A DNA stretch of 35,681 bases. Source: an uncultured Anaerolineae bacterium (GTDB lineage: Bacteria; Chloroflexota; Anaerolineae; Aggregatilineales; Phototrophicaceae). This document shows positions 697 to 31,273 of the stretch, in pieces; position 1 is the first letter of the stretch; each line of letters begins with the position of its first letter. The translations under genes and the position numbers were made by a program. The notes under the pieces are model-generated. The model had not been told where the DNA came from. It saw nothing but the letters and a program-made list of their open reading frames with translations, and did no database searches. The stretch covers positions 1 through 35,681 of the forward strand of contig CALAJK010000017.1 in assembly GCA_937922795.1 (NCBI GenBank), read 5' to 3'.

Positions 697-4629
<3,933 letters not shown>

Positions 4630-4660
4630 GCCCTGAAGCGATCTTCAAACATCAGTAGGG

Positions 4661-4693
4661 ACAGGGCGGCGCGCAGTCGCCCTGTTGGTTTGC
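4661..4693 (+). terminator. Rho-independent type terminator after rpoB
   Basis: ACAGGGCG at 4661-4668 pairs perfectly with CGCCCTGT at 4678-4685 (8 bp, 9-base loop), followed by the moderately T-rich TGGTTTGCTC. It lies 31 bases after the rpoB stop, between convergent genes. It supports rpoB being transcribed alone, without rpoC. Confidence 0.65.
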
Positions 4694-5800
4694 TCATGCT
4701 GGCCGATCGCCGCCCTCATCCGGCGGGGTCTTGGGCAGCGGCAGCGGGCGGAACGGCCCCTGCTGCACGCCCATCATGCGGCGCAGAGCGTTCATCTCGG
4801 TGGTGGTCAGCTTAATGTGGGCGGCGTCGTCTGAACCAGGGCGCTTGCGGCCAAACGCCTGGTCGAAAGCGATCCACTGGTACTGGAGATCAGCCAAGTT
4901 GGACACCAAACGGGTCGGGTTGATGCCGTGCGGCAGCACATCGCGCGGGCGGATCATGAGGATGCTGATCACCATCAGGCCAACCCCGATCAACTGCGGC
5001 GGCGTCAGTCGGTCACCCAGCACGACGAACGCCAGCGCCAGCGTGACGCCGATCTCGGTCAGCGCTAGAATGGCCGTTTGCAGGCTGCCGAAGAACTTGA
5101 CGCCGGCGAACAGCGCCAGCCGCGACAGTGCTGTCGTCAGCCCCAGCGCCAGAATTGGCGGCAGCGCCATCTCCAGCGCCTGCGCTTCCAGCGGCTGGCC
5201 GACCGCCGCCCACACGATCGTCACCAGCAGCGCCATCGTCGTCAGCGTGTAGAGCGTCACGGTGGGCGCGGGCATCTCGTACAGCACGTATTGGCTGAGG
5301 ATGACCGTCCCGGCGAACATCAGCGCATTGGCCAGCATCAAGCCCACGCCCAGCCAATTGACCGGGGCACTGCCGAAGCCGGTGATGATGACCAGCGCGG
5401 CGAACGCCAGCAGCACGCGAATCCGCAGCCGCCATCCCAGACGTTCGCCCCCCAGGCGCGACAGCAGCACCGCGAAGATCAGATAAGTGCCGTTGAGGAG
5501 CTGGGTGAGCGAAGCGTCCAGCATGCCCAGGCCGCCATAGTAGAACAGCGAGCCGATGCCGTTGACCGCTCCGACCACTACGCATCCGAGCAGGCCCGCT
5601 GGGTAGATGTAGATATAGCGCCGGGCGACCAGGACGTAGACCAGCCACAGCAGCAGCGCCGCCGTCACTGTGCGCCAGGCCGCCACCGTGAACGAATCGG
5701 CGCCGGCGTTGATTGCCAGCTTGCCTAAAACGGGCGCCATCCCCAGGAAGAGGGGCGTGAGCAAGCCGGCGACGACCCCGCGTGTATGCTTCCGGTTCAT
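4694..5800 (-). CDS. EamA/DMT-family transporter with C-terminal extension
   Basis: Ten-helix drug/metabolite transporter with two EamA repeats. The N-terminal repeat begins GLLTPLFLGMAPVLGKLAI; the second contains the small-residue-rich helices and the typical closing LIGVGLMVISILMI. The family exports small metabolites, and E. coli RhtA (threonine/homoserine exporter) is a member. The start ATG at 5800 has AGGAC about 7 bases upstream. The last roughly 85 residues, from RPRDVLPHG onward, form a hydrophilic, probably cytoplasmic tail that is not part of the usual fold, with a proline-rich end. It lies 62 bases downstream of the threonine synthase-REC fusion in the same direction, so co-transcription and a role in threonine or homoserine export are reasonable inferences. 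Substrate is not shown by the sequence. Confidence 0.85.
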   Translation of the reverse strand: MNRKHTRGVVAGLLTPLFLGMAPVLGKLAINAGADSFTVAAWRTVTAALLLWLVYVLVARRYIYIYPAGLLGCVVVGAVNGIGSLFYYGGLGMLDASLTQLLNGTYLIFAVLLSRLGGERLGWRLRIRVLLAFAALVIITGFGSAPVNWLGVGLMLANALMFAGTVILSQYVLYEMPAPTVTLYTLTTMALLVTIVWAAVGQPLEAQALEMALPPILALGLTTALSRLALFAGVKFFGSLQTAILALTEIGVTLALAFVVLGDRLTPPQLIGVGLMVISILMIRPRDVLPHGINPTRLVSNLADLQYQWIAFDQAFGRKRPGSDDAAHIKLTTTEMNALRRMMGVQQGPFRPLPLPKTPPDEGGDRPA

Positions 5801-5862
5801 GCTGTCCTGCTTTCATCATCTGGCGCGTCATCGCGTCATTGAATGCCGCCTCCGCCGCTCGG

Positions 5863-7536
5863 TCATTTGAGCTTGCTGACCAAGCTCTCGATGAATCGGT
5901 CATCCACGAACGAGCCTTTTTGCAGCAGCATGTCAATCTGACCGTTGAGGCGCGCGCGTTCGGCGGCTGTCAGCTCTTTGGCCGTCACCACCACGATTGG
6001 GATGTGCGCCAGCTTAGGATCGGCTTTCAGCGTGTCGATCACCTGGAAACCGTCCACATCGGGCATCATCAGGTCGGTGACGACCAGATCGGGCATGACT
6101 TCGTGGATGAGCTGGATGCCGGCAGCGCCGTTGTGCGCCAGATGGATGTCGTAACTGCCGCGCGCCTGCAGGATGCGGCGGATGAGCCGCGCCGCGTCCA
6201 TGTTGTCCTCGATGATGACGATGCGCCGCACCTGCGCCTCGACCTGTTCAAGCGCCGACAGCAGCCCTTCTTCGGGCAGCGCCGGCAGCCGCGCCTGGCC
6301 AGACAGATCCACCGAGTGCTGCCACTGTTCGCCCAGGATGTGCTTCTCCACTGCCATGGTGTGGCCAGAACAGTTGACGACCACGATGTCATCTGGCTTG
6401 ATGATGCGCTGACGCACCAGATTGATGAGGCCGGCGAAGGTCACTGCGGTAGCCGGCTCGACGGAGATGCCGTCGGTGCGCGCCAGGATCAGCGTGGCGG
6501 TGAAGGCATCATCGTCGGTGGCGGCGGTGAAATAGCCGCCGTGCGCCTGCACGTAATCGTAAAGCAGTTCGTAGGCCCGGCCGGGGTTGCCGGTCGCCAG
6601 CGTGGCGATGATCGTCTGCGGCGTCTCAACCGGCGTGGCGATGCGCTGGCCGCGCTCAAACGCCTCGACCATGGGCGCGCACCCCGCCGACTGCACCAGC
6701 CCCAGCGCCGGCATTTTGTCCACCAGGCCGAAGCCGACCATCTCGCGGAAACCTTTGGCGACGCCGATCGGCCCCATGCCGCCGCTGACCGACTGCAAGA
6801 ACCAGTCCGGCGCGCGCCAGCGCGCGCCCTCCTCGTATTCCTCGCCCAAATCCTGGGCGATCTCGTAGGCCATCGTCTTCATCGCCTCGATCGAGGCCAC
6901 GCTCTTGATGCCGCGGTCGAAGAAGATGCCTTTGCTGCGGGCGAAGCGGGCGGCGATCTCTTTCGTCTGGTCATACGTGCCGGTGATCTTGATGACCTCC
7001 GCACCGTACAGCGCCGCCTCGCGCATCTTTTCGCCGGGGGTCAGGCTTGGGAAGAACGCCCACAGCTTGATACCAGCGCGGGCGCAGTAGGCGGCGTAGG
7101 CGATGGCCACGTTGCCGGTGCTGGCGACCACCAGTTCGTTGACGCCCATCTCTTTTAGCGCCGAGATGGCGACCGTCGCCTGCCGATCTTTGAAGCTGCC
7201 AGTTGGCCCCTGGCGCTCATCCTTGATGTACAGGTGCTTCAGCCCCAAGCTGGTCGCCAGCGCCTGCGAGCGGATCAGCGGCGTGCCGCCCTCGCCCAGG
7301 CTGACGATGTGCGCCGAGTCCAGGATGGGCAGCACCTCGCGGTAGCGCCACAGGTTCGGTTGGCGCCGCCGCAGCGTCTGCACCCAGGTCTGAGGATCGA
7401 TCTTGTGCAGATCGTAGCGCGCCTCTAGGATGTTCTCGCCGCAGGACGGACAGCCAGTGACATCGCGGGTCAGCGGCAGCCGCGTGTGACAGTTGATGCA
7501 TTCGAGCTCGAAGTGCTGCGATGATGTTGTGTTCAA
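5863..7536 (-). CDS. thrC: Threonine synthase fused to a response-regulator receiver domain
   Basis: The N-terminal ~425 residues are a PLP-dependent threonine synthase (O-phosphohomoserine to threonine). An N-terminal zinc-ribbon-like motif has Cys13, 16, 29 and 32. The PLP lysine lies in GPTGSFKDRQ (about Lys116). The phosphate-binding STGNVAIAYA and SVSGGMGPIG motifs and a late NCSGHT are present. Residues ~436-557 form a complete receiver domain: acidic pair in VIIEDN, phospho-acceptor Asp in VVTDLMMPD (about Asp487), conserved Thr in VVVTAKE and Lys in LLQKGSF. The frame is unbroken across the joint, so this is a real fusion. The start is TTG at 7536 with an AGAGGAAAG purine run upstream. 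It follows the GAF/kinase operon by 169 bases and precedes an EamA transporter. The domain calls are secure; that phosphorylation controls the enzyme is inference. Confidence 0.93.
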   Translation of the reverse strand: MNTTSSQHFELECINCHTRLPLTRDVTGCPSCGENILEARYDLHKIDPQTWVQTLRRRQPNLWRYREVLPILDSAHIVSLGEGGTPLIRSQALATSLGLKHLYIKDERQGPTGSFKDRQATVAISALKEMGVNELVVASTGNVAIAYAAYCARAGIKLWAFFPSLTPGEKMREAALYGAEVIKITGTYDQTKEIAARFARSKGIFFDRGIKSVASIEAMKTMAYEIAQDLGEEYEEGARWRAPDWFLQSVSGGMGPIGVAKGFREMVGFGLVDKMPALGLVQSAGCAPMVEAFERGQRIATPVETPQTIIATLATGNPGRAYELLYDYVQAHGGYFTAATDDDAFTATLILARTDGISVEPATAVTFAGLINLVRQRIIKPDDIVVVNCSGHTMAVEKHILGEQWQHSVDLSGQARLPALPEEGLLSALEQVEAQVRRIVIIEDNMDAARLIRRILQARGSYDIHLAHNGAAGIQLIHEVMPDLVVTDLMMPDVDGFQVIDTLKADPKLAHIPIVVVTAKELTAAERARLNGQIDMLLQKGSFVDDRFIESLVSKLK

Positions 7537-7661
7537 GGGTTCGTCTTTCCTCTCAGTGGGCTGTGATGCCCGTCCATCGCGTTTTGCGCCCTCACCTCTT
7601 CAGCTGCCTCAATCTCTGCTGACGAGGTAGCGCAGGTCAAAGCGCATCGCACCTTTTAGAC

Positions 7662-7682
7662 GCGGCGTCAAAGAGACACCGC
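7662..7682 (-). terminator. Weak hairpin after the giant kinase gene
   Basis: GCGGCGTC at 7662-7669 can pair with GACACCGC at 7675-7682 (one G-T pair, 5-base loop), 24 bases past the kinase stop. No T-run follows on the minus strand, so termination here may be partial and thrC-REC could be read through from the operon. Confidence 0.25.
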
Positions 7683-7705
7683 CTTCACCTTCATTGGCCG
7701 CGGGG

Positions 7706-15841
<8,136 letters not shown>

Positions 15842-15864: not shown

Positions 15865-18069
15865 CTAATGGTCGGCAGTGTTGGCATCGCCGTTGCTGTG
15901 GTTGAGGCGTATCTGTACCTGCGGTGCGCGCAGCGCCTGGCCAATCTCACGCACAGCGGTTTCCAGAATGAACGCGACTTCGGTCTGGCTGGTTAGCTTG
16001 CTGGCGATGGCGTTCACAATGCGCTCGCGCTCGGCGGCGCGCTGGCTTTCTTCGAACAGGCGGGCGTTGTCCAGGCTGATCGCCAGCCGGTTGGCCAGCT
16101 CTTGGGCCAGCAGGAGCTGGTTTTCATCCACCATTTCCGCTGGCAGCTCCCACTCCACCGCGCCCAGCGGTTGGCCGCTGATGCGGATCGGCACGGCGAT
16201 CGGCACAGTGCCGTGGCTGGTCACTTCGCCCACTACCACCCGCGCCTCGGCGATCGCCCGCCGCCGCAGCTCAGACAAGTCCGAGCCGGTCGGCACGCCG
16301 GCGGCGCTGGCCAGCGCGCGCTGCCGCTGCGAATAGATGTATTCCTGCCAGGTGGCGCGAGTCGCCTCACGGTTGATGCGTTCGATCTCAGCCAGCCGAC
16401 GCGTCGATTCTTGGTACAGACGGGCATTCTCCAGCGCGATGGCGATCTGGTCGGCCAGCGTCTCCAAGACGGCGATCTCATCCGGATGGAAAGCGGCGGG
16501 CTGTTTGCTCTGCACATCCAGCGCCCCGATCACGCGATCGCCGATGCGCAGCGGGATCGCCAGCTCAGCGCGGGTGTCGGGCAGGAATTCGTTGCGCTTG
16601 TGCACAGGGCTGACGGTCGTATCGCGCGCCACCACCACCTGCCCCAACTGGGTCACTTGGCCGATGACGCTGACGCTGCCCACCGCTAGCCGATGCCCGC
16701 GCCGCAGCAGCATCTGGCCGACCTCGCCGGTGCTGGCGCGCAGCAGCGCGTACTGACGGTCGTTATCCACTAAGAAGATCTGGGCATGATAGATCTGCGG
16801 AAAGTGCTGGACGATCAGATTGACGACTTCATCCATCAGCGTTTGTAAATCGCGCTGGGTGGCAGCAAACCGGCTGACCGCCTGGGTGGCGCTGACGTCG
16901 CGGGAACGGGCGGCTAGACGGGCTTCCAGGTCGTCCAGCAGCCCGCGCACCTGCGCGCGCAGGTCGAGGAACGCCGCCGCCAAACCGCCGATCTCGTCGC
17001 CCCGGTCGGCGACCGTCACCGGCGCTTGGAAGTCGCCGCGCGTCATGGCCTGGATAGCCCGGCGCACTTGCTGGATGGGCGGGCCGAACATCTGGTGGAA
17101 CAGCAGCGCCAACAGCGCCAGCAGCGCCGCCGGGCCGACGATCATCACGAACACGCGCGCGCCGTTGAAGTAGCCGAGCGCCTGGCTCATCAGCGCGCCG
17201 GCGTTCACTTCCGTCACCAGCGCCATCAGGACGCTGCCCGGCAGCGTCGGGTCGAGAATTGGTGCATAGAAGCCGATGACCGGCGTCTCGCGCTCGACGC
17301 CCACCCGATATTCGATCACCCCGCTCCCGCCCGTGAGAGCGCGCGCGACCGCTGCCGAGGCGGACGACTGCTCCGCCGCCGCCCGCGTCTCCGGCAGGCT
17401 GAAGATGACCAGGACATCGCCGGACGTGACCAGGTAGGTATAGGCGTTGTAGACGTTGCCCCCTAGGGGTAGATGGGCGCTGATGACGCGGGCGCTGTCC
17501 AGAGTGACCACCAGATATCCCGGCATATCACGCACATCGGTGATCGCCTGGGCGATCTCCAGCGCGCCGTTGGGCAGGATGGTGATGGTCGCCGCCCGGC
17601 CTTGTTCCAGCGCCTGGCGCGCGCGGCTGAACGTCAGCGCGTCAGTTTCATTGGGGGCGGTGGCGATCAGCGCATCTGGTCCGGTCTGGACGAGCACGCG
17701 GCCTTCGGCATCCAGCACGCGGGCTTTAACGTACAGGCTTGACCTCAACAGCGTGACTTGCAGCAGCGCCGCCGTGCTCTCCGGGCGCGGATTGGTCAAA
17801 TTGATCTGGCGGGTGAAGCCAGGGTTGGCGGCGAAATCCAGCAGCGCCGCGCTGGCGTGGGTGAGGGTTTCATTGATCACATGAGCCTGATGGCGGCCAC
17901 TCTCAACTACATAGTTTTCGATATAACGCCGATTGAGATCGTGAAATGCGCCCTGGACGATCACGCCGACCACCAGCGCCGGAACCACCACGGCCAGCGC
18001 AAACCCAGCCAGCAGCTTGGCCCAGATCGGCCACGACAGGATGCGGAAGGGGCGTAGGAGCGCATTCAT
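15865..18069 (-). CDS. Membrane sensor: extracytoplasmic domain, HAMP, GAF, half-GAF modules, no kinase
   Basis: About 734 residues from ATG 18069. This start overlaps the TGA of the preceding gene (ATGA) and has GAGGAG eight bases upstream, so it is preferred over a start 21 bases earlier. It has TM1 (WAKLLAGFALAVVVPALVVG), a Cache-like extracytoplasmic region, TM2 (VMIVGPAALLALLALLF), then HAMP with the typical P-x-x-x-V...GDF-x-x-P...DEIG pattern. A full GAF follows (YHAQIFLVDN to GALDVQS), then a WQEYI motif with the second half of a GAF (IAVPIRISGQPLGAVE). It ends in the shared tail ESQRAAERERIVNAIASKL...IRLN, which resembles the first half of a GAF. There is no HisKA, HATPase, GGDEF or methyl-accepting domain. 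It probably signals through partner proteins such as the giant kinase 23 bases downstream. Confidence 0.88.
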   Translation of the reverse strand: MNALLRPFRILSWPIWAKLLAGFALAVVVPALVVGVIVQGAFHDLNRRYIENYVVESGRHQAHVINETLTHASAALLDFAANPGFTRQINLTNPRPESTAALLQVTLLRSSLYVKARVLDAEGRVLVQTGPDALIATAPNETDALTFSRARQALEQGRAATITILPNGALEIAQAITDVRDMPGYLVVTLDSARVISAHLPLGGNVYNAYTYLVTSGDVLVIFSLPETRAAAEQSSASAAVARALTGGSGVIEYRVGVERETPVIGFYAPILDPTLPGSVLMALVTEVNAGALMSQALGYFNGARVFVMIVGPAALLALLALLFHQMFGPPIQQVRRAIQAMTRGDFQAPVTVADRGDEIGGLAAAFLDLRAQVRGLLDDLEARLAARSRDVSATQAVSRFAATQRDLQTLMDEVVNLIVQHFPQIYHAQIFLVDNDRQYALLRASTGEVGQMLLRRGHRLAVGSVSVIGQVTQLGQVVVARDTTVSPVHKRNEFLPDTRAELAIPLRIGDRVIGALDVQSKQPAAFHPDEIAVLETLADQIAIALENARLYQESTRRLAEIERINREATRATWQEYIYSQRQRALASAAGVPTGSDLSELRRRAIAEARVVVGEVTSHGTVPIAVPIRISGQPLGAVEWELPAEMVDENQLLLAQELANRLAISLDNARLFEESQRAAERERIVNAIASKLTSQTEVAFILETAVREIGQALRAPQVQIRLNHSNGDANTADH

Positions 18070-19760
18070 CGAGGCATCTCCTCTGACCACGCCGAGTCAG
18101 TCAGTTCCGGCTGAACGTATATGCGGGTGCTGACCGCCCCTAGCGCTTCATTGAATTGTTCAGCGGCTAGATCGAGCAGGGCGCGCACATCGGTCGCGCC
18201 GATCAGCAAACTGGCGATCTGGCCAGCTTTACGCTCACGCAGGGCCTGCGCCTGGCTCTGCTCGAATAGGCGGGCGTTCTCCAGCGCCAGCGCCAGGCGT
18301 TCGGCCACCACCTGCGCCATCTCAATCTGGCGGTCAGTCAGCGCGCGGCCAGGTGGCAGCGTGAAGGCCATCGCCCCTAACGTCTGGTCGCGGAAAGTGA
18401 TCGGCACATGCAGCACCTGGCCTGAGCCGTTCGACTCGACTTGAATCAAGCCGCTGGCCAGGGTAGCGCGCAGCGCGTCCGGCAGATCGTCGGCCAGTCG
18501 CAGCTCGCCAGTCTCTGATAGGTCAAAGCCCAGGGCAGCCCGCCCGCGCCCGCTGAGATAGGCGCTCCATATCCGGCTGACGCTGCGGCGGTCACGCTCT
18601 TGATAGCTGGATAGCTGTTCCTGGAGCTGGCGGACGACGGTGGCCTGCTCGCGCAGATCGCGCTCCATCTGGGCGACTGCCTGGCCGCGCGCCAGCAGCG
18701 CCCCCAACAGCCCGCCGAGCAGCCGCCCGGTTTCGATGCGCGCCGGCGGGAAGCCGGCGCTCTCGCCCGTCTGCAGCTCCAGCACCCCGATCAATTTCGA
18801 CCCGCTCAAGATGGGCGCGTACAGCGTGTCGCGGGTTGACGACCGCAGCAGCGCGCCGCGCCGCAGCGCTTCGACCGCTGACAGCGCCAGCGGCTGCCGA
18901 GTTCGCGCCGTCTCGCTCACCGGGTGGCGCTCGTTCAAACCCAAACTGGCGCCCGCAGCGGCCATCTCCTGCCGCACTAGGTCGGTATTCATCGCCGGGA
19001 TCAGGCGCTCGCCATCCTCGTCCAGCAGGTATACCTGCCCAAACACCACCCGAAAACGATCGCGCAGAACTTCCATCGTGCGCGCGAGGATCGCCCCCTG
19101 GTCGTTCACATCCTGGAGTTCCGCGCCCAGCTCCAGCAGCAGGCCGCGCCCCTCCAGATCAGACTGCATCTCAGCGGTCGTCCGGTCAAAACTGCTGATG
19201 AGGGCGGCCAGCAGCGCGCCCAGCACTATCAGCCCCAGCAGCAGCGTGAACAGATCGAATGGGGCAAGGCGCGCGGGCACGACCGTCACCGGCGCGCCGT
19301 TCTGGCTTTGGATGGCGGCGGCGACCAGCACGCTGCCGGCCAATATCAACCCGATGATCCCCAGGCCGCGGCGGTTGAGCAGCGCGCCGGCGGCGACCAG
19401 CGGCGCGGCCAGGGTGATCATGTTGGCGCTGCTGATGGTGATGCTGCCGTCCGGCGCCAGGAAAGCCACTTGGATCGTGGTGCCCGTCAGGATGCCCACG
19501 AACAGCCACGACGCCCGCCGCAGTTGGCCGGTCTGGATGAAGGTATAGTTCAGCCAGCAGATGACCAGGATGGCGATGGACACCGCCACCACGTTCCAAT
19601 CCAGGCCGTCCAAGTTGCCAGGGTTGACGAGCAGCCACAGGGCGGTGATGGCGGCGATGCCCCAGTTCGCCAGCAGCAGCGCATTCGCCCGCTGCCGGTC
19701 TACGGGGTTGGCATAGACCGCGCGGACGCGGAAGAACCTGTCTCGCAGTCGAGCGATCAT
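18066..19760 (-). CDS. 6-TM sensor with GAF and half-GAF modules (third paralogue)
   Basis: 564 residues. The N-terminal ~200 residues hold about six hydrophobic helices (for example NALLLANWGIAAITALWLL and LFTLLLGLIVLGALLAALI). A GAF domain follows (VVFGQVYLLDEDGERL to LIGVLELQTG), then a coiled-coil-like stretch, an IWSAYLSGRGR motif, a C-half GAF (LHVPITFRDQTLGAMAF) and the shared tail (LFEQSQAQALRERKAGQIASL...TRIYVQPE). No output domain is seen. ATGA overlaps at both ends (19757-19760 and 18066-18069) imply translational coupling. It is the most diverged of the three 6-TM paralogues: its GAF lacks the STGEVGQ-type loop seen in its neighbours. The membrane part could sense something in the lipid phase or merely anchor the protein; the ligand is unknown. 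Confidence 0.87.
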   Translation of the reverse strand: MIARLRDRFFRVRAVYANPVDRQRANALLLANWGIAAITALWLLVNPGNLDGLDWNVVAVSIAILVICWLNYTFIQTGQLRRASWLFVGILTGTTIQVAFLAPDGSITISSANMITLAAPLVAAGALLNRRGLGIIGLILAGSVLVAAAIQSQNGAPVTVVPARLAPFDLFTLLLGLIVLGALLAALISSFDRTTAEMQSDLEGRGLLLELGAELQDVNDQGAILARTMEVLRDRFRVVFGQVYLLDEDGERLIPAMNTDLVRQEMAAAGASLGLNERHPVSETARTRQPLALSAVEALRRGALLRSSTRDTLYAPILSGSKLIGVLELQTGESAGFPPARIETGRLLGGLLGALLARGQAVAQMERDLREQATVVRQLQEQLSSYQERDRRSVSRIWSAYLSGRGRAALGFDLSETGELRLADDLPDALRATLASGLIQVESNGSGQVLHVPITFRDQTLGAMAFTLPPGRALTDRQIEMAQVVAERLALALENARLFEQSQAQALRERKAGQIASLLIGATDVRALLDLAAEQFNEALGAVSTRIYVQPELTDSAWSEEMPR

Positions 19761-21373
19761 CGGACGGCTTCCCCTATATTCTGGCCATCGGCCACGCTCA
19801 GGCGGATGGCGCCGCGCGCCGCGCCCAGCGACTGGCTCAACTCGGTCAGGGTGACGCGCAGCAGATCGTCAACGCGGGTGATCGTCTGATAGCGCGCGAC
19901 GATGTCGTTGATGCGCTGCTCGTATGCGGCAGCCTCCTGCGATTCTTCGAACAGGCGCGCTTTGTCTAGGCTGAGCGACAGCCGTTGGGCGACGGCCTCG
20001 ACCGTCTCGACCACGTTCGCCGCCTGGGACGGATCTTCGGTCTCGATCTCGATCACGCCGATGACTTCCTCGCCCAACAGCATCGGCACGGCGGTCACCG
20101 CGCGCCCGTCCTGGACGACGGTCACCGGCTGACGCCGGCGTCCGGCTTCGATCTGGGCCGCGCTCCACTCGCCCTCGGCGGCAGGTTGGTCCGCGCCGAG
20201 CGTGACGCCGGTCACCGTGCGGCGGCTGCGCAGGTAGGCCTCCCAGCCAGCCCGGGTGAGCTGTTGGTTCAGGCGTTGAATCTCGCGCAGATTCTGCTCG
20301 GCTTCCAGGTACAGGCGGCGGGTCTCGGCGGTATTCTGTTCCTGAGCCGCGAACAGGCGGGCGTTGCGGATCGAAGTTCCCAGCAGGTTCGCCATCACCT
20401 GCAGCGCCTGCACGCGCTCGGCGTCGAAGGCCTCGCGGTAGCGGCTTTGCACATCGAGCGCGCCGATGATCCGGTCGCCGTCCAGGATGGGCACGGCCAA
20501 TTCGGCGCGGGTGTCGGGCAGCAGATCGTTGGGCAGGTAACCAGGGTCGGTATCGCGGGCGATCACCGGCTGCCCCAGCAGCGTCACCCGGCCGATCACG
20601 CTGGCCGAGCCGACCGCCAGTCGGTGCTGGCGCGCCAGAAGCTGCTGGCCGACTTCGCCAGTGCTGGCGACCAGTTCAGCATGGCTGCCGGCCTCGTTCA
20701 CCAGGAATACCTGCACGTGATAGAACGCCAACCGGTCGCGAACCTGTTCCACCGCGGCGGCGAGCATTGGCTCCAGATCCAGGATGCTGCCCAACCCTCG
20801 GCTGATCTCAGCCACCGCCTGCAGCAGCGCCGTGCCGCGCCGCGCCTGCAGGGCGGCGCGTTCGGTCTCCTCGATGAAATAGCGAGTGGCGAGCCCAACG
20901 ACGCCCAGCGCCAAAAACTGCACCAGCCGCTGTTCGGCTTCCGCTGGCATCGCGCCGCTGAACCCTGGCCAGATCTGCGCGATGCCGATCAGCCCAACTG
21001 CATACACCACGACATTGGCGATGATGAAGGTGAGGCGGTTGCCCAGCGCCGCCCCGGAGATCAGCGCCAGCGCGCTCATCGGCAGGAAGGCCTGCGGCGC
21101 GGCGGCCGCCGTCAGCGCAAACGTCGCCACGATCAGCGCCGCCGCCACCTGAGTCTGCCCACGCTCCACCACCAGCCAGAGCAGAATGCTGACGCCCAAG
21201 AAGGCGGCGATGGTTAGCGTCAGCGCCGCTTCGCCCCGGCGCAGCACTTGAATGAGGATGCCGGCGATGGACAGCGCCATGCCAACGACTGCCAGCGCCC
21301 GGATGAAACGGGCGTGCAGGCGGATGAATAGGTCGCTTTGAGCGACCAAAGGCGACAGCCGCTTCAGGTTCAT
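19757..21373 (-). CDS. 6-TM sensor with GAF and half-GAF modules (second paralogue)
   Basis: 538 residues. Six or so hydrophobic helices in the first ~180 residues (ALAVVGMALSIAGILIQVL, LTLTIAAFLGVSILLWLVV and others) lead to a complete GAF (YHVQVFLVNEAGSHAEL, ASTGEVGQQLLARQHRLAVG, IIGALDVQSRY). Next come a helical linker with WEAYLRSRR, a C-half GAF (AVPMLLGEEVIGVIEIE) and the shared tail (LFEESQEAAAYEQRINDIVARYQ...GAIRLS). There is no transmitter. Starts and stops overlap neighbours by ATGA on both sides. The first GAF is close in sequence to those of the flanking genes and to the ninth GAF of the giant kinase, so the set arose by duplication. Function beyond sensing or scaffolding is not visible. 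Confidence 0.88.
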   Translation of the reverse strand: MNLKRLSPLVAQSDLFIRLHARFIRALAVVGMALSIAGILIQVLRRGEAALTLTIAAFLGVSILLWLVVERGQTQVAAALIVATFALTAAAAPQAFLPMSALALISGAALGNRLTFIIANVVVYAVGLIGIAQIWPGFSGAMPAEAEQRLVQFLALGVVGLATRYFIEETERAALQARRGTALLQAVAEISRGLGSILDLEPMLAAAVEQVRDRLAFYHVQVFLVNEAGSHAELVASTGEVGQQLLARQHRLAVGSASVIGRVTLLGQPVIARDTDPGYLPNDLLPDTRAELAVPILDGDRIIGALDVQSRYREAFDAERVQALQVMANLLGTSIRNARLFAAQEQNTAETRRLYLEAEQNLREIQRLNQQLTRAGWEAYLRSRRTVTGVTLGADQPAAEGEWSAAQIEAGRRRQPVTVVQDGRAVTAVPMLLGEEVIGVIEIETEDPSQAANVVETVEAVAQRLSLSLDKARLFEESQEAAAYEQRINDIVARYQTITRVDDLLRVTLTELSQSLGAARGAIRLSVADGQNIGEAVR

Positions 21374-23076
21374 ACGTTCCCATCCTCGGAAGCCTGACCG
21401 ACCGGCGGTGTGCCCAGCCGGATGGCCACGCGCCCCACTTTGAGCGCTTCCTTCAGCGTGCGGGCGGCGGTATTGAGCGTGACCTCGACGCTGCTGCTGG
21501 CCTGCAGCTGGGTGGCAATCGCGTTCACCAGTGCCTCACGTTGAGCGACGCGCTGGCTCTCCTCAAACAGGCGCGTCGTCTCGGCGGCCAGACCCAGGCG
21601 CTCGCTCACCTCTTGCAGCAGATCAATGTCATCGGGCGTCAGCGACTGGTTGGCGTCCAGCTCAAACTCCATCGCGCCGACCACTTGGCCGCGCACCCGC
21701 AGCGGCACGGCCACCACCTGGACGCCGTTGGCCTGCTGCTGCACCACATGGTCACCCTCGGCCGCCTGCCGCAGGCTGGGCGTCCAATCGCCATCAGCAG
21801 TGCGGCGCGCCTCGAAATCCACTTCCAAACCTGGCGCTGCTGGCCGCTGGCGCAGATAATCCGCCCATAATTGACTCGTGAGCTGCTGATTGAGGCGCTC
21901 AACTTCGGCCATGGTCTGCCGCATCTGCGCCATCAGACGCTGGTTCTCCTGCAGCCGCTGCGCCGTCTCCTCGAACAGGCGGGCGTTGTCAATGGCAATA
22001 GCCAGATGATCGGCCAAAGACTGAAAGACGGGGATATCCTGCTCGCGGAAGGCAGTCGCCGTCTTGCTTTGCAGGTCGAGCGCGCCGATGACATTGTCGC
22101 CGATGCGCAGCGGGAAAGCGGCTTCAACCGCTGTCTCCGGCAAGAATTCGTTGCGGCGGTGGATAGTATCTGGCGAATTGGCGTAGGCGACGATGGGGCG
22201 GTTGGCGGCGGTGACCTGGCCGATCACGCTCAAACTGCCGATGGGCAGACTATGGCCGCGCGCCAGCAGCAGCCGGCCAACCTCGCCGGAGCTGGCGGCC
22301 AAACGAGCGCTCTGGCTGGGGCGATCGATCAGGAAAATCTGGGCGTGGTAGATGTAAGGATACTCATCGCGAATTTGCTCGACGGCCGCTTCCAGCACTT
22401 CATTGAGCGCCGTGCGGCGCGAGATGCGCTGAGCAACCTGACTGGTGATCTCGGCTAGGCGCAGCCGCTCAAGGTTCGCTTCGCTCTCGCCCTCAGCACG
22501 GCTCAGGCTGGCGTAGCTCAGAAATAGGTAGGTGATGCCGCTCACACCAGTCAATCCTAGCAGGGTGTAGACCAGTGTCAGATTGGCGGGGATGGCCGTC
22601 AGATCAGGCGGCGTCCCGCGCGAGCCGATGCCGATCAGCAGCACGACCAGCGCCAGCGCCATACCGGCCAGCAGGTGGCGGCCTGTGCCCTGCAGCCCGG
22701 CCAGCAGGATGAGAATCACCAGGATCAGACCGTCGCTCAGGGTCCACAACCCATTGCGGGCGATGGGCAGGCAGAAGCCGACTAACCAGGCGACGATGAG
22801 CAGCCGTCCCGCCCAGACGACTTGCCCTGCGCGCGCCAGGATGAAGCTAACGGCGGTCACCCCTAGCAAGAAGGCGACGTAAAACGCGACCGTTGAGTCG
22901 CGGGCGGCCTGCTGCCAGATGTTATCGCCGGTAGCCTCCTGTCGGCTGACGAGCGCATAGATGCTGCTCAGGAAGATGATGAGCAGGCTGACAATCATGA
23001 TCGTGCGCGCGCGGCTGCGCTCCAACGGAGTAGCGTAGCCGGACACATCAAACAGCCAGTTCAGGCGGTCACGCAT
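21370..23076 (-). CDS. 6-TM sensor with GAF and half-GAF modules (first paralogue)
   Basis: 568 residues. The N-terminus has about six TM helices (RTIMIVSLLIIFLSSIYALV, STVAFYVAFLLGVTAVSFIL, GLILVILILLAGL and more). A GAF follows (YHAQIFLIDRPSQSARL, ASSGEVGRLLLARGHSLPIG, VIGALDLQSKT), then LWADYLRQR, a C-half GAF (VAVPLRVRGQVVGAMEFEL) and the shared tail (LFEESQRVAQREALVNAIATQL...VAIRLG). The start ATG at 23076 lies 6 bases after the stop of the preceding gene, with AGGAG in the overlap region, and the stop overlaps the next gene by ATGA. No kinase or other output. The overall plan is the same as in its two downstream paralogues. Confidence 0.88.
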   Translation of the reverse strand: MRDRLNWLFDVSGYATPLERSRARTIMIVSLLIIFLSSIYALVSRQEATGDNIWQQAARDSTVAFYVAFLLGVTAVSFILARAGQVVWAGRLLIVAWLVGFCLPIARNGLWTLSDGLILVILILLAGLQGTGRHLLAGMALALVVLLIGIGSRGTPPDLTAIPANLTLVYTLLGLTGVSGITYLFLSYASLSRAEGESEANLERLRLAEITSQVAQRISRRTALNEVLEAAVEQIRDEYPYIYHAQIFLIDRPSQSARLAASSGEVGRLLLARGHSLPIGSLSVIGQVTAANRPIVAYANSPDTIHRRNEFLPETAVEAAFPLRIGDNVIGALDLQSKTATAFREQDIPVFQSLADHLAIAIDNARLFEETAQRLQENQRLMAQMRQTMAEVERLNQQLTSQLWADYLRQRPAAPGLEVDFEARRTADGDWTPSLRQAAEGDHVVQQQANGVQVVAVPLRVRGQVVGAMEFELDANQSLTPDDIDLLQEVSERLGLAAETTRLFEESQRVAQREALVNAIATQLQASSSVEVTLNTAARTLKEALKVGRVAIRLGTPPVGQASEDGNV

Positions 23077-23082
23077 GGCCTC

Positions 23083-25362
23083 TTATTCTCCTACCGCCTC
23101 GCCATCGGTCTCTGTCCGCAGGCGGATACGCGCCCGGCGCGCCCCCAACGCCTGACCGAGTTCTTGAACGGCCACGTCCATGATACGTGATAAATCCGTA
23201 TGCTGCTGCAGGCGCATGGCGATCGCGTTCACCAGCGCTTCATTCTTCACCATCCGCTGGCTTTGCTCGTAGGCCTGGGTGTTTTCGATAGACACGGCGA
23301 GCTGGTTCACCATCTGCTGGAACAGCGCCACATCGGTATCGCTGTAGCTGTAGGGGCGCAGGCTGCCCACGCTGACGATCCCCAGGATGCGCCCGCGCGA
23401 GATGATCGGCGCCAGTATCCAGGCGCGCAGCGCGCTCTCCGGGGTGTCGGTCGCAGCGTACAAGTCCGGCAGGTACAGCAGCTCCCTATTTTGCCAGACG
23501 GCAGCGATGTGCCCAGACAGGGGGATCAGGTCGCCCCCGGTCAGGTCGACTGAGACGGCGTCGCCATCGGCCAGCGTCGCCACCGTGCGCAGCGCCCCCC
23601 GCGCCGGATCGTACAGGCTAATGCTCGCCTGATCCTGCGGCAGCATTCGGGCAGTTTCGGTGAGCATGAGGGCGAACACGCTTTCCAGGTCGAGCGTGAC
23701 CTGCGCCGACTGGCCGAAGCTGGCGACGCGCTGCAGTTGATCGGCGCGGCGTCGCGCCTCGGCCAGCAGGCTCAGATTTTGCAGGCCGCTGGCGACCTGA
23801 GCCGCCAGCGTCCGCGTCAGCTCAATGACCTCCGGCGTGAACTGCCGTCCGGGCGTGTACAAGTCCAGGCCGACCGACCCAGAAAAGTGGCCGCGCACGA
23901 ACAGCGGCGCGATCAACAGCGCCTGAACGCCCAACTGCGCCATCAACTGGCGCGTGCTCTCGTCGAGTTCGGACGTGTGTTGGACATCATGAACCACCAC
24001 CGGACGAGGATCGTTTGCGCTGATCCGCTGATACAGCGGGTTGGCGCTGATGTTCATATGCGCTCCTACTGCGCCCTGTTCTGGGAATTCGGCAGCCACT
24101 ATGCCCGAAACGCCATCTGGCTCTAACAGCACTACGCCGGCATGATCGGTGCCCGTCGCCTGCACCAGTGTGCGGCAGGCGATATTCAGCAGCGTCTGTT
24201 CATCCTCGGCCGCGTTGGCCTGGCTGATAAACTGGTTGATGATTTGCAGCGTTCGCACCTGGTGCGTCAGTTGTTCAGCGGCGACCTGCGTCTCGCGCAG
24301 CAGACGTTGGTTTTGCAGGATGATGGCGATCTGATCGCCCAGCGCTTCGTACAGCCGGCGCTGCGCCGCATCGAACGCTTGCGGTGTGGCGAAACCGATG
24401 GTGATGGCCTCGCGCACCTGGCCAGCCTCCCGCAGCGAGAACGTCACATAGCTCAACAGTCCGTTCTGGCGTGAGAAATTCACCAGCGGGTCGCCAGCGC
24501 CCGGCTTGTTCAGGTCGCCGACGAAGGTCACAAGTTCGTCGCGGTGGTTCCACTCGTCCTCAAGCTGCTCCAATTCGTAGGGGGCGATCATTTGGTGCAG
24601 CGGCAGCTCAACTGCCTGTTCGCCGTCCGGCAAACTGAGAAAGTCCAGCAGGATCGACTCGATGCGCTGGGTGGCATTGTAATTCACCCGCAGATGGCTG
24701 ATGAGCAGCGCTTCCGGGGCGAGATGCCGGCGCAGCGCCCGCAGCACATCCAAGGTATCCTGAGCGCCGAGGATCGCACGGCTGACATCGTACAGTGTAC
24801 GCATCTCATCCAGCGCAGCGCGCGTCTGATGGATGAGGTCGCGATTGCGCAGCGCCAAGCCGATCTGCTCAGCCACCAGCGCGACCATCCAATGATCCTC
24901 CGGCGTCAGCGTTGGGGGGGTGTCGCTCAGCAGTTCGAGGATGCCGAGCAGCGAACCGTCGCCCGCGCGCAGGCCGAATGACGCCGTCCAGCGCACGACT
25001 TGATCGCCCACCACGAACAGCGGCGCATCGGTCTCAGCCTGCTGGGTGATCACCTCGCCGCGCGCCAGCGCCGCCAGCCGGTCGCCGGCCAGCGGCAGAT
25101 CTGGCGGCAGTTCGACAGGGGCGGCAGCATGCGCCATCACCGCCACGCGGCGCGGTTGGCTGGGCGGCGCATCTGACTCAAGCGGGCGGTTCAGATGGGT
25201 GATGGCGACGCCGGTCACACCGCCAGGGGCCGCTTGCAGCGCAGCCGTCGCCCAGTCCGCCAGATCGCGCCCGGCCAGGATGGCGCGGCTGGCGGTCAGC
25301 AAAGCGCGCGCCTGAGGGATCAAACCGTCGGGAAAGGTCGGCTGCGCTAGACCGCTCATCAC
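23083..25362 (-). CDS. Cytosolic protein of four GAF domains plus half-GAF tail
   Basis: 759 residues without TM helices. Four GAF-type domains are visible by their closing helices: IGLALRNRDLIHQ (~180), IAIILQNQRLLRE (~365), VASGLQNLSLLAE (~545) and LAVSIENTQAYEQ (~690). After the last comes the same tail as in the membrane sensors (QSQRMVKNEALVNAIAMRL...RARIRLRTE). There is no W-x2-Y/C-half module and no output domain. The start GTG 25362 has GAGGAG eight bases upstream; ATG 25359 directly follows as an alternative. It is the first sensor gene after the two receiver genes and lies 127 bases from them. Because it shares the tail but lacks an anchor, it may be the soluble member of a complex with the 6-TM proteins (inference). 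Confidence 0.87.
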   Translation of the reverse strand: MMSGLAQPTFPDGLIPQARALLTASRAILAGRDLADWATAALQAAPGGVTGVAITHLNRPLESDAPPSQPRRVAVMAHAAAPVELPPDLPLAGDRLAALARGEVITQQAETDAPLFVVGDQVVRWTASFGLRAGDGSLLGILELLSDTPPTLTPEDHWMVALVAEQIGLALRNRDLIHQTRAALDEMRTLYDVSRAILGAQDTLDVLRALRRHLAPEALLISHLRVNYNATQRIESILLDFLSLPDGEQAVELPLHQMIAPYELEQLEDEWNHRDELVTFVGDLNKPGAGDPLVNFSRQNGLLSYVTFSLREAGQVREAITIGFATPQAFDAAQRRLYEALGDQIAIILQNQRLLRETQVAAEQLTHQVRTLQIINQFISQANAAEDEQTLLNIACRTLVQATGTDHAGVVLLEPDGVSGIVAAEFPEQGAVGAHMNISANPLYQRISANDPRPVVVHDVQHTSELDESTRQLMAQLGVQALLIAPLFVRGHFSGSVGLDLYTPGRQFTPEVIELTRTLAAQVASGLQNLSLLAEARRRADQLQRVASFGQSAQVTLDLESVFALMLTETARMLPQDQASISLYDPARGALRTVATLADGDAVSVDLTGGDLIPLSGHIAAVWQNRELLYLPDLYAATDTPESALRAWILAPIISRGRILGIVSVGSLRPYSYSDTDVALFQQMVNQLAVSIENTQAYEQSQRMVKNEALVNAIAMRLQQHTDLSRIMDVAVQELGQALGARRARIRLRTETDGEAVGE

Positions 25363-25489: not shown

Positions 25490-25930
25490 TTATTTCCACT
25501 CCCACACTTCTTCGCCCGCCAGCAGGCGGCGAATCTGGTTGGGGAAGCGGTCAGCGTCTAATGGTTTGCCCAGGAATCCATTGAAGCCGGCTTTGCGCGC
25601 TCGGCGCATCTGGTCTTCGCTGGCTTCGGCGGTGACAGCGCACACGATGGTATCGCGCAGACGGGGGTGCGCTCGCACCTTCTGCAGCGCTTGATAGCCG
25701 TCCTCATAAGGCAGGCGAATATCCATCAAGATCAGATCGACACGCGGGAGCGTATCGGCAAACTGAACCACCTGCCAGCCGCTTGTCTTCCATTCGCAGC
25801 GCTGCACGCCCATGAACGCCAACATTCGGGCGATCAGGACAAAATTGGGCACATTGTCCTCGACGACCAGGACATGCGCTTCGCCGGGTTCGATCGGTTC
25901 ACGCAGCGTAGACGTTGGCGCGTCGGTCAT
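25490..25930 (-). CDS. Single-domain response regulator (second)
   Basis: 146 residues, a stand-alone receiver domain with a short N-terminal extension. It has the acidic pair in LVVEDN, phospho-acceptor Asp in LILMDIRLP, conserved Thr in CAVTAEA and Lys in FLGKPLD. There is no DNA-binding or enzymatic output, so it would act as a phosphate shuttle, sink or protein-binding switch. The start ATG overlaps the stop of the preceding receiver gene (ATGA, 25927-25930). After it comes a 127-base gap with no gene before the GAF operon continues. The likely kinase is the giant hybrid kinase at the operon end (inference from context). Confidence 0.9.
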   Translation of the reverse strand: MTDAPTSTLREPIEPGEAHVLVVEDNVPNFVLIARMLAFMGVQRCEWKTSGWQVVQFADTLPRVDLILMDIRLPYEDGYQALQKVRAHPRLRDTIVCAVTAEASEDQMRRARKAGFNGFLGKPLDADRFPNQIRRLLAGEEVWEWK

Positions 25931-26307
25931 TGATGGCGACTCCTCAAGTAAGACAGCAGTTCATCAGGCAGCCGATCAACGTCAATCGGCTTGCGAATGT
26001 AACCATCGCAGCCCGCTTGTAGGGTGCGTTCTCGATCGCCGTCCATGACGTTGGCCGTCAGCGCCACGATGACCGTGTGGCGCAGCTCCGGGATGCTGCG
26101 GATATATCCAGTAGCCGTCAGGCCATCCATTTCCGGCATACTCACGTCCATTAAAATCAGGTCCGGCGGATTGCGCCGCGCCATCTCGATGCCAGCGATG
26201 GCTGACTCAGCCTCTTCCAGCTCGAACTGATAGTCGCTGGCCAGCAGCACCCGCCGCACCAGGACGCGGTTATCCCGATTATCCTCAATGTACAGGACTC
26301 GCGGCAT
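25927..26307 (-). CDS. Single-domain response regulator (first gene of the operon)
   Basis: 126 residues, CheY-like receiver only. It has the acidic pair in VLYIEDN, phospho-acceptor Asp in LILMDVSMPEMDG, Thr in VALTANVM and Lys in YIRKPID. The ATG at 26307 is preceded by an AAAGG purine run and a promoter candidate within 50 bases, so it is probably the first gene of the signalling operon. It is translationally coupled to the next receiver gene by ATGA. Two adjacent output-less receivers at the head of an operon ending in a hybrid kinase with two more receivers suggest a multi-step phosphorelay (inference). Confidence 0.9.
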   Translation of the reverse strand: MPRVLYIEDNRDNRVLVRRVLLASDYQFELEEAESAIAGIEMARRNPPDLILMDVSMPEMDGLTATGYIRSIPELRHTVIVALTANVMDGDRERTLQAGCDGYIRKPIDVDRLPDELLSYLRSRHQ

Positions 26308-27036: not shown

Positions 27037-28206
27037 TCAGATGCTGATGCCCACCCGGTGGATGGCGAAGCTGTTGTCGTCCTTCAGGATTTCGGATTTG
27101 GTCAGCCGCCCGTTGCAGGTGGCCAGCACCTCGTCGAAGATCATCTGCCCGCCCTGCTCGATGGTGATCTCGCCGCGCAGGATGCCGCTCACGTCCAGCT
27201 CCATCGTGTCCTTCATCAGCTCCCACGACTCGCGGTGGCCGGTGACTTTGATGGTCGGCATGATAGGGTGCGACACCGTGTGGCCGCCGCCGGTCGAGAA
27301 CACCAGCACCTGCGCCCCAGCCGCCGCAATGCTGCTGATCGATTCGGCGCCGTGGCCGGGGCCGTACATCACGTACAGGCCGGGCGTCTTGCCGGGGGGC
27401 ATGGCGATGTCCAAATAATCCACGATGGGCGAGCTGCCGGCCTTCTTGCACGCGCCCATGGACTTCTCTTCGATGGTGGTCAGCCCACCCAGAATGTTGT
27501 CGCCGGTGGGCTGCGAGCCGCGGATGTCCTCGCCGCTGGCCAGGGCGCGGGCTTCCATATCGGCCACGCCGGCCATGATCTTATCAGCCACTTCCTGGCT
27601 GACGGCCTTGCTGGTCAGCCAGACTTCAGCGCCCATCCATTCGGTCGTCTCGGCCATGATCGAACGCCCGCCCTCGGCGATGATCCGGTCAGAACAGTAG
27701 CCGGTGGCCGGGTTGCTGGCCAGGCCGGAGGTGGTGTCAGACGTGCCGCAGTTCATACCGAAGATCAGGCTGGAAAGCGGCACTGGCTGGCGGCGCTGGT
27801 CGCTGAGCTGGCGGGCGATCTCCATCGCATAGCGGGTGGCCTTTTCCGTAGCGGCAATCAAGCCGCCCGAACGACGGATGTTGACCGTCATCACCGGCTT
27901 ACCGGTGGGCGCGATGTCGGCGGCGATATCCTCGGCAGTGCAGCCCAGCTCCTGAAAATGATCCACGACGACCACGCCGCCCACGTTCGGGTTGCTGGCC
28001 GTGCCAGAGAGAAAGCGGCGGGTCATGCGCAGGTCAGGCTTCACCTGGGTGCGGCCCAGGGGATGCTCGATGGCGATAGCGCCCCAGATGAGGTTGGCGA
28101 CGTGGGCGCACAGTTTGTTGGCGTACACCGTCCCCGACAGGATCAGGATGTGGTTGCGGATGCCTACCGAGCCGTCCGGGCGCACATATCCGTAAAATTC
28201 GGTCAT
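27037..28206 (-). CDS. UxaA-family dehydratase, large (C-terminal) part
   Basis: 389 residues of the UxaA/GarD family large domain, which dehydrates sugar acids such as altronate or galactarate; sulfolactate sulfo-lyase SuyB belongs to the same family. Landmarks are the N-terminal GYVRPDGSVGIRNHILIL, a Cys-containing GMNCGTSDTTSG (compare KCGGSD in altronate dehydratases), GLTTIEEKSMGACKKAG and FSTGGGHTVSHPIMPTIKVT. It lacks the N-terminal SAF domain, which is encoded 76 bases upstream as a separate gene, so the enzyme is probably a two-subunit form. The start ATG has AAGGAG upstream. Last gene of the operon. Exact substrate is open: sugar acid dehydration is favoured by the GH4 neighbour, and sulfolactate cleavage cannot be excluded because Suy enzymes are also split. 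Confidence 0.85.
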   Translation of the reverse strand: MTEFYGYVRPDGSVGIRNHILILSGTVYANKLCAHVANLIWGAIAIEHPLGRTQVKPDLRMTRRFLSGTASNPNVGGVVVVDHFQELGCTAEDIAADIAPTGKPVMTVNIRRSGGLIAATEKATRYAMEIARQLSDQRRQPVPLSSLIFGMNCGTSDTTSGLASNPATGYCSDRIIAEGGRSIMAETTEWMGAEVWLTSKAVSQEVADKIMAGVADMEARALASGEDIRGSQPTGDNILGGLTTIEEKSMGACKKAGSSPIVDYLDIAMPPGKTPGLYVMYGPGHGAESISSIAAAGAQVLVFSTGGGHTVSHPIMPTIKVTGHRESWELMKDTMELDVSGILRGEITIEQGGQMIFDEVLATCNGRLTKSEILKDDNSFAIHRVGISI

Positions 28207-28282
28207 GGTGTTAGGTTCTCCTTAACCGGATCATTTCGTCAACGCAGGATGTTCCACAATCTGCCCGGCCGCGCGCCGGCTG

Positions 28283-28633
28283 TCATGTTTTAACCTTGCC
28301 TTTGGCCGTCAGGTCGCCGCGGCCGCGGTTGCTCTCCACGTTGTGGATATGCACGTGGTCGCCGGCCTTGATGTTGGCGGTGGCCGTGCCGATGCTCAGG
28401 CCGTATTTGATGACCGGCTGCCCTTTGCGGATCGGGCGCAGCGCGATCTTATGGCCGTAAGGGATGTCGGCCAGCGCCTTGAGCGTTACATCGGTCACGC
28501 GGCCGGCGGTGGTCACTGTGTCGCCCTTGCGGATCAGCTCCTCGCCGACGGCCGTGCCCACGTTGTCATCGGCCTCGATGACGAACACCGTCTTGACCGT
28601 GCGAGGCGCTTTGCGGGGTTTGCGTTCGGGCAT
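28283..28633 (-). CDS. UxaA-family dehydratase, small SAF-domain subunit
   Basis: 116 residues matching the N-terminal SAF domain of altronate/galactarate dehydratases: DDNVGTAVGEELIRKGD, then ALADIPYGHKIALRPIRKGQ, VIKYGLSIGTATANIKAGDHVHIHNVES. The HKIAL and YG-x-x-IG-A motifs are typical. The start ATG has a strong GGAGGAAGG Shine-Dalgarno. The family can be one fused protein or two subunits, and here the large part follows directly. An N-terminal basic patch (MPERKPRKAPRTVK) precedes the domain. It would contribute to metal and substrate binding in complex with the large part. Confidence 0.85.
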   Translation of the reverse strand: MPERKPRKAPRTVKTVFVIEADDNVGTAVGEELIRKGDTVTTAGRVTDVTLKALADIPYGHKIALRPIRKGQPVIKYGLSIGTATANIKAGDHVHIHNVESNRGRGDLTAKGKVKT

Positions 28634-28698
28634 CGTGTTCCTTCCTCCTTCAAAAAATCGCGCTTCTCTAGAACCAGGACGGCCGCAGCGGCGAGCGG

Positions 28699-30141: not shown

Positions 30142-30177
30142 AGCTCTCTACCGCACCTTCTGCTCACAAAATGGCGT

Positions 30178-31221: not shown

Positions 31222-31273
31222 CTCAAAGCCTCTCTGCTCCCAGGAGCGCACGCTCAGCCGCGCAGACGCCGCT

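Follow-up and report, generated by a model that had tools for sequence, protein, structure and literature searches.

A widespread Chloroflexota fusion of a threonine-synthase-like enzyme and a receiver domain, probably switched by an adjoining histidine kinase

A 35,681-nucleotide stretch of DNA from an uncultured Anaerolineae bacterium (the window) encodes a pyridoxal phosphate (PLP) enzyme resembling threonine synthase (ThrC) that is fused to an intact receiver (REC) domain, and this fusion recurs in many related genomes, most often directly downstream of a histidine kinase gene. The interpretation we favor, and consider reasonably likely from the sequences compared here, is that the protein acts as an enzymatic response regulator, in which a receiver phosphorylated by the kinase would switch a re-tooled PLP enzyme whose product is perhaps exported. 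The fusion is real, conserved and no mere fluke; where an earlier note on this DNA, made from its letters alone, ties it to threonine, the case is weak.

The fusion gene occupies 5863..7536 on the reverse strand, as do all window features given below. It begins with a TTG codon and stays open for 557 amino acids, bearing out the earlier note's description of a single frame for enzyme and receiver, and its extent is supported by orthologues. Pfam assigns residues 78-389 (6370..7305) to the PALP family of fold-type II PLP enzymes (PF00291, E 1.4e-70) and residues 439-540 (5917..6222) to Response_reg (PF00072, E 3.4e-17); each match passes the gathering threshold. According to Foldseek, the closest solved folds to the PALP domain are threonine synthases and the cysteate synthase CapA2. 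Lys116 (7189..7191, motif SFKDRQ), by homology the lysine that forms the Schiff base with PLP, is kept in all 75 unique fusion rows and, together with Ser139, Thr140 and Asn142 of the STGN loop, in 111/111 rows of a larger alignment. The 75 unique rows were drawn from 104 loci passing a coverage and score filter, with identical copies and fragments removed. Ahead of the PALP domain lies a zinc-ribbon-like segment (residues 10-35; 7432..7509) whose four cysteines (Cys13, Cys16, Cys29 and Cys32) are all present in 75/75 of these rows; its match to the Pfam family DUF7129 is weak, under that family's cut-off, and the cysteine pattern leads us to infer that it binds zinc.

The receiver carries the normal set of site residues, namely an acidic pair (Glu443-Asp444), the predicted phospho-acceptor Asp488 (6073..6075), Thr518 and Lys540, and these are nearly invariant: Asp444 and Asp488 occur in 75/75 unique rows and Lys540 in 74/75, and position 518 is Thr or Ser in 94/94. 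The completeness of the receiver had been anticipated, with the acceptor placed at about residue 487, one short of its exact position. Between enzyme and receiver, residues 393-435 (6232..6360) form a linker of low AlphaFold2 confidence (pLDDT <50 at 393-401 and 411-435). Both domains are well modelled (mean pLDDT 82.9, pTM 0.69 for the protein), and because of the low-confidence linker their relative placement is not given by the model, in which we saw no confident orientation of PALP versus receiver and no allosteric interface. A scan of window positions 4500-8000 for promoters and terminators returned nothing beyond chance.

Fusions of two kinds were found: the window type, a ThrC-REC protein of ~560 amino acids, and a second clade at ~50% identity whose members mostly carry two receivers and measure about 690-790 amino acids. 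Among 22 rows examined from this second clade, all 21 that have a second receiver retain the full set of site residues in it (acidic pair, Asp, Thr/Ser, Lys). In a tree of PALP domains, all 111 fusion rows (72 of the window clade, 22 of the two-receiver clade and 17 from the phylum-level search) form one clade with a support of 0.90 and a stem length of 1.07, to which none of the 39 other threonine-synthase-like rows from the same genomes belongs. By sequence, 110 of the 111 are distinct, and since L142 and L175 are the same gene and L107 and L148 look alike, slightly fewer are independent.

Is the enzyme the cell's threonine synthase? Probably not. The window's own genome encodes three further threonine-synthase-like proteins, on contigs C23, C60 and C61, and the C23 gene adjoins thrB in divergent orientation. 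Its product scores 256.5 bits on the threonine synthase model TIGR00260 (cut-off 167.1), and counterparts 68-81% identical to it were present in the thrB-adjacent stretches of 20/20 relatives fetched. Because a canonical ThrC stands beside thrB, we reject a housekeeping role for the fusion; threonine would be made by this separate enzyme. The fusion itself reaches 170.2 bits on TIGR00260, barely above the cut-off, and the two-receiver relative L108 falls below it at 129.4 bits. Searches of 96 fusion loci at E 1e-10 returned no match to thrB, and the best match to the housekeeping ThrC, at 42% identity, was not such an enzyme.

Two observations concern the remaining paralogs. The C61 protein (L004) resembles additional threonine-synthase-like proteins of ~365 amino acids encoded a few genes from the fusion in some relatives (L036, 15983-17080; L046, 16046-17143), and is closest to PRK06450, below that family's cut-off. 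The C60 gene (L003, 1408-2697), which encodes a "threonine synthase" of the PRK08197 type, adjoins a gene that by eye looks like a carbamate kinase, and in 13 of 17 PRK08197-type rows a Thr replaces the canonical Arg discussed below; the annotation of the C60 protein is thus also doubtful.

The substrate site of the fusion differs consistently from that of ThrC. In the Thermus thermophilus enzyme, Asn154, Ser155, Arg160, Asn188 and Asn191 are the residues that we take, from the 1v7c work, to hold the substrate phosphate of O-phosphohomoserine. All five are kept at their columns in 21/21 housekeeping ThrC rows, and none occurs at its column in any of the 111 fusion rows, which instead have mostly Arg/Lys, Gly, Ala/Ser/Gly and a loop of the form SGG[MLI]GP (L152, the same gene as L108, was left out of this comparison). 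One column beyond the missing Arg, at position 216, a basic residue is found in 36/111 fusion rows overall: 4/72 in the window clade, 22/22 in the two-receiver clade and 10/17 at the phylum level. Outside the window's clade, this residue could stand in for the Arg under a shifted alignment; since the window's own clade mostly has no basic residue there, the result left our weighting of the readings unmoved. Other positions are uniform across the fusions, with Arg108, Gln119, Gly209, Ser251, Pro256, Cys286 and Thr315 invariant in 111/111 rows, and this uniformity points to a different, constrained active site rather than to decay. The site also stays basic, at position 208 in 96/111 rows and at 211 in 105/111.

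What had been called a complete PLP threonine synthase accordingly retains the PALP domain, the catalytic lysine and the STGN loop of such an enzyme and lacks, at their columns, the five residues expected to bind its substrate. Under our favored interpretation, the enzyme would be a duplicated protein of the threonine synthase fold with a re-tooled active site that most likely catalyzes beta/gamma elimination or replacement; its substrate would be an acidic amino acid other than O-phosphohomoserine, or at least one bound differently from it. The basic site, and a loop closer to that of CapA2 than to that of ThrC (see below), lead us to guess at an acidic, beta-substituted amino acid.

The view of the earlier note, that a kinase uses this protein to add threonine production, would make the fusion a signal-controlled second threonine synthase that binds O-phosphohomoserine through different residues. 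Its TIGR00260 score just above the cut-off, threonine synthases as its nearest solved structures, and the basic residues near the site (208, 211, 216 and the invariant Arg108) speak for this, as does the allosteric activation of ThrC by S-adenosylmethionine (SAM), described in the part of PMC3174156 drawn on here. We nevertheless judge it unlikely, given the housekeeping ThrC already beside thrB, the loss of all five canonical residues from every fusion row, the 96 fusion loci without thrB or housekeeping ThrC, and the two-receiver relative that falls under the family cut-off.

Directly upstream of the fusion and on the same strand, the window encodes a giant hybrid histidine kinase of 2711 amino acids (7706..15841), in which Pfam recognizes seven GAF stretches, a PAS domain, HisKA (PF00512, residues 2191-2258; 9068..9271), HATPase_c and two receivers. 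It is preceded by genes for five proteins in which Pfam finds GAF domains (741, 564, 538, 568 and 759 amino acids; 15865..25362), and the run is headed by a pair of overlapping genes for stand-alone receivers, also by Pfam (146 and 126 amino acids; 25490..26307). The neighbors are thus as described previously. GAF proteins are often found upstream of fusion loci elsewhere.

Linkage between kinase and fusion is common. Some of the 88 loci with an upstream gene belong to close relatives, so that the counts do not represent independent events. In 70 of the 88, the immediately preceding gene on the same strand encodes a histidine kinase, with a median gap of 12 nt and a gap of at most 20 nt in 39 of these 70; at one of them (L073) only the receiver end of the kinase is in the sequence. 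At the other 18 loci, the gene called directly upstream is not a kinase. Gene calling at 96 loci returned no intact fusion in L056, L066, L090, L109, L110 and L114; the open frame is nonetheless present in L056, L066 and L090, where it runs to the contig end in the last. In five genomes, G015 (L043), G016 (L042), G028, G029 and G031 (L066, which is outside the 88-locus count), the kinase is not adjacent and a close kinase is encoded at another place in the genome. No such kinase was matched at E 1e-120 in four genomes of the same family that lack the fusion, with all candidates scored in three of them and 24/33 in G017. At the same threshold, 26 of 61 genomes, many of them with the fusion, gave no kinase match among the at most 24 candidates scored per genome, a scope that makes these absences uncertain. 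A long open frame in G188 that could be taken for a fused kinase-enzyme polypeptide is, from its start codon, a separate 812-amino-acid PALP-REC-REC protein beside a kinase; G488 has a similar long frame.

The fused receiver shares a lineage with a receiver of the kinase. Its best match elsewhere in its own genome, at 43% identity, is the second, C-terminal receiver of the window kinase (residues 2592-2688; 7778..8068). A receiver tree that covers the window and 28 of the 96 loci joins the fused receivers to the kinase's last receiver (support 0.80) and separates them from kinase first receivers, stand-alone receivers and REC-kinases; the closest non-fusion receiver is a kinase last receiver for 29/29 fused receivers. 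Inner supports are low (0.24-0.56), and the kinase receivers form no clade of their own. Among the two-receiver fusions, a kinase lies directly upstream in 13 of 19 loci (20 loci in all, with the single-receiver L142 set aside; the other 6 have no kinase called upstream), and none of these 13 kinases shows a receiver in the last 228-847 amino acids, the C-terminal part covered. A kinase without a detected receiver also stands beside a one-receiver fusion in L161, L163, L167 and L169. It thus seems that kinase and enzyme have exchanged receivers, as would fit a single phosphoryl route.

The linkage, the receiver lineage and the receiver-less kinase C-termini beside two-receiver fusions all point to the adjoining kinase as the cognate one, and we conclude that the fusion is probably switched by it. 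In our proposed mechanism, the fused receiver would be the phosphoryl acceptor, or one of them, of the GAF-rich kinase encoded just upstream, and phosphorylated Asp488 would switch the attached enzyme through the flexible linker or through receiver dimerization. Counting against this route, the kinase's own two receivers could compete for the phosphoryl group. By eye, the first of them (8087-8467) has an Arg at the position expected for the conserved Lys (SRPF), so it may be altered; the second keeps the Lys.

On the other side of the fusion, 62 bases downstream, the window encodes a transporter of the EamA family (DMT superfamily; PF00892; 4694..5800). A same-strand EamA gene begins within 2 kb downstream of the fusion in 54 of the 86 loci that have 2.5 kb or more of downstream sequence and does not in the other 32. 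This confirms the exporter gene noted earlier as a family member; the label "RhtA-like" does not carry over, because only the broad EamA family was matched and the protein's single NCBIfam match reaches 30.6 bits against a cut-off of 230.2. Perhaps the EamA protein exports the product of the fusion. Taken with the intact receiver, the conserved architecture and the kinase upstream in 70/88 loci, the EamA gene in 54/86 makes a link from signal to enzyme the natural reading, and this portion of the earlier proposal that signaling and biosynthesis are joined is supported; the identity of the enzyme as the threonine synthase is not.

Two further explanations must be weighed against this architecture. 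The PLP domain may be a small-molecule sensor or brake, which binds PLP and an amino acid, alters the lifetime of the receiver phosphate and thereby feeds metabolic state to the kinases. Signaling genes make up most of the nameable neighbors, and the common lineage of the fused receiver and the kinase's receiver would suit such a role; retention of Lys116, the SxGN loop and a PLP-phosphate-type loop goes beyond the needs of a binder, however, and the frequent EamA gene suggests that there is something to move, so we regard this as improbable. The receiver could alternatively serve only for docking or dimerization, pairing REC to REC with the kinase's last receiver and stationing the enzyme at the kinase cluster, with phosphate playing no regulatory part. 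Shared lineage with that receiver and the apparently flexible linker are compatible with docking, but docking alone needs none of the phosphorylation residues, which are nearly invariant here and complete in the second receiver too (21/21), and we consider this account very unlikely.

The wider neighborhood holds further genes. Within the nearest three genes downstream of the fusion, a REC-HisKA-HATPase-type protein occurs in 36/88 loci and a lone receiver in 8/88. In L165, L168, L170, L172 and L173, a gene for a ParA/MinD-like ATPase of the AAA_31 type lies just before the GAF kinase, a call made by Pfam in L165 and from a shared N-terminal sequence in the other four; its presence suggests localization or clustering of the kinase module. 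A GNAT acetyltransferase-like gene is found near the fusion in L108, which has two receivers, and in L161. Farther along the window, a sugar-acid and glycoside run (27037-31362) encodes the C-terminal part of an altronate/galactarate dehydratase, a family 4 glycosyl hydrolase and a Cgl0159-like protein.

The fusion is widely distributed. A search of 61 genomes, namely that of the window and 60 relatives, gave a match of E 1e-160 or better in 56, G017, G027, G032, G034 and G055 being those without. At E 1e-75, matches were obtained in 146 of 396 genomes sampled from the class and in 37 of 350 sampled from the phylum, two samples that overlap; seven of the 37 lie outside the class and come from two families. 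Among the matches listed, every one from the phylum sample extends to residue 552 or beyond, and the best matches from the class sample extend to residue 529 or beyond. Nine class genomes had their best match outside the listing, of which eight were inspected singly and G038 was covered by the 61-genome search. Short matches in G667, G495 and G445 are cut by contig ends; in G518 and G617 the fusion is broken across frames or pieces and retains its receiver, G623 has one copy split over frames with its receiver present, and the window-clade copy of G011 contains 100 N. The possibility raised earlier that orthologues never carry the receiver can be set aside: across the 61-genome, class and phylum sets, we found no verified member without one. 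Two loci come from public records that are labelled otherwise, L041 (Bacteroidetes) and L066 (Pleurocapsa minor), and have contig coordinates identical to G010 and G031, respectively. Since the genome set assigns G010 and G031 to the genus and family of the window, these records are probably mislabelled bins. An assembly join or chance neighboring frames, a concern for a draft genome of 127 contigs such as the window's, is refuted by the same fusion in many independent assemblies, among them the single-contig G065, G172 and G396, and we give it practically no weight.

If correct, our interpretation describes a direct switch from kinase to metabolism that operates without transcription and is conserved across much of a bacterial class, one represented here mainly by environmental genomes. 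The fusion also marks a subfamily of PLP enzymes that is annotated "threonine synthase" and probably does something else. We tentatively extend this to a larger proposal, which we hold as possible rather than likely: an ancient, widely conserved Chloroflexota system in which the giant GAF kinase would directly phosphorylate a PLP enzyme whose dedicated, exported product would be an amino-acid-type signal or metabolite other than threonine, with the receiver traded between the two proteins in the course of evolution. The output of a two-component system would then be a small molecule made on site, instead of transcription.

Compared with characterized enzymes, the fusion shares with threonine synthase (TIGR00260, EC 4.2.3.1; structures 2zsj, 1v7c, 2d1f and 2c2b) the fold, the SFKDR lysine and the STGN loop, and its N-terminal Cys segment is common to the housekeeping ThrC of these genomes; it differs in the replacement of the five Asn/Ser/Arg positions, in a SGG[MLI]GP loop where ThrC has GNxGN, and in the added receiver. 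A ThrC-like fold is also common to cysteate synthase (TIGR03844; CapA2, structure 9k3c), to which the fusion is 23% identical over the Foldseek alignment and which has no counterpart of its receiver; in the aligned loop, VGSGTGAI of CapA2 resembles VSGGMGPI of the fusion more than ThrC does. On TIGR03844 the fusion scores 126.5 bits and the housekeeping ThrC 59.7; with its score far under the family cut-off of 324.9, the fusion does not qualify as a cysteate synthase by this model. The best NCBIfam match of the fusion is the PRK08197 "threonine synthase" (NF006050) at 285.1 bits, below the cut-off of 303. The C60 protein passes that cut-off (317.8 bits) at a length of only 429 amino acids, and the best 25 of its 45 NCBIfam matches include no receiver model.

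Precedents exist for both halves of the proposal. The SAM activation described in PMC3174156 refers to Arabidopsis threonine synthase (1e5x) and offers a precedent within the fold for allostery in the fusion. Microcystis ThrC has been reported, in the part of PMC12172450 drawn on, as both a synthase and a deaminase, a dual activity that makes annotation by ThrC homology unsafe in this family. Among the literature titles and abstract openings listed, we found no fusion of a threonine synthase to a receiver, and mention in the output-domain censuses of 2006 and 2010 is possible. Joining REC to a metabolic enzyme is itself a known kind of architecture: the section of PMC5847659 consulted describes multiple instances in bacteria, by which enzyme activity is put under environmental control, and archaeal examples of narrow distribution, confined to a family or genus. 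The window fusion is like these response regulators in its REC-enzyme plan and unlike them in its output, a fold-type II PLP domain not named in that section. It is also unusually widespread, spanning, in contrast to the archaeal fusions as portrayed there, much of a class and seven genomes of two families outside it.
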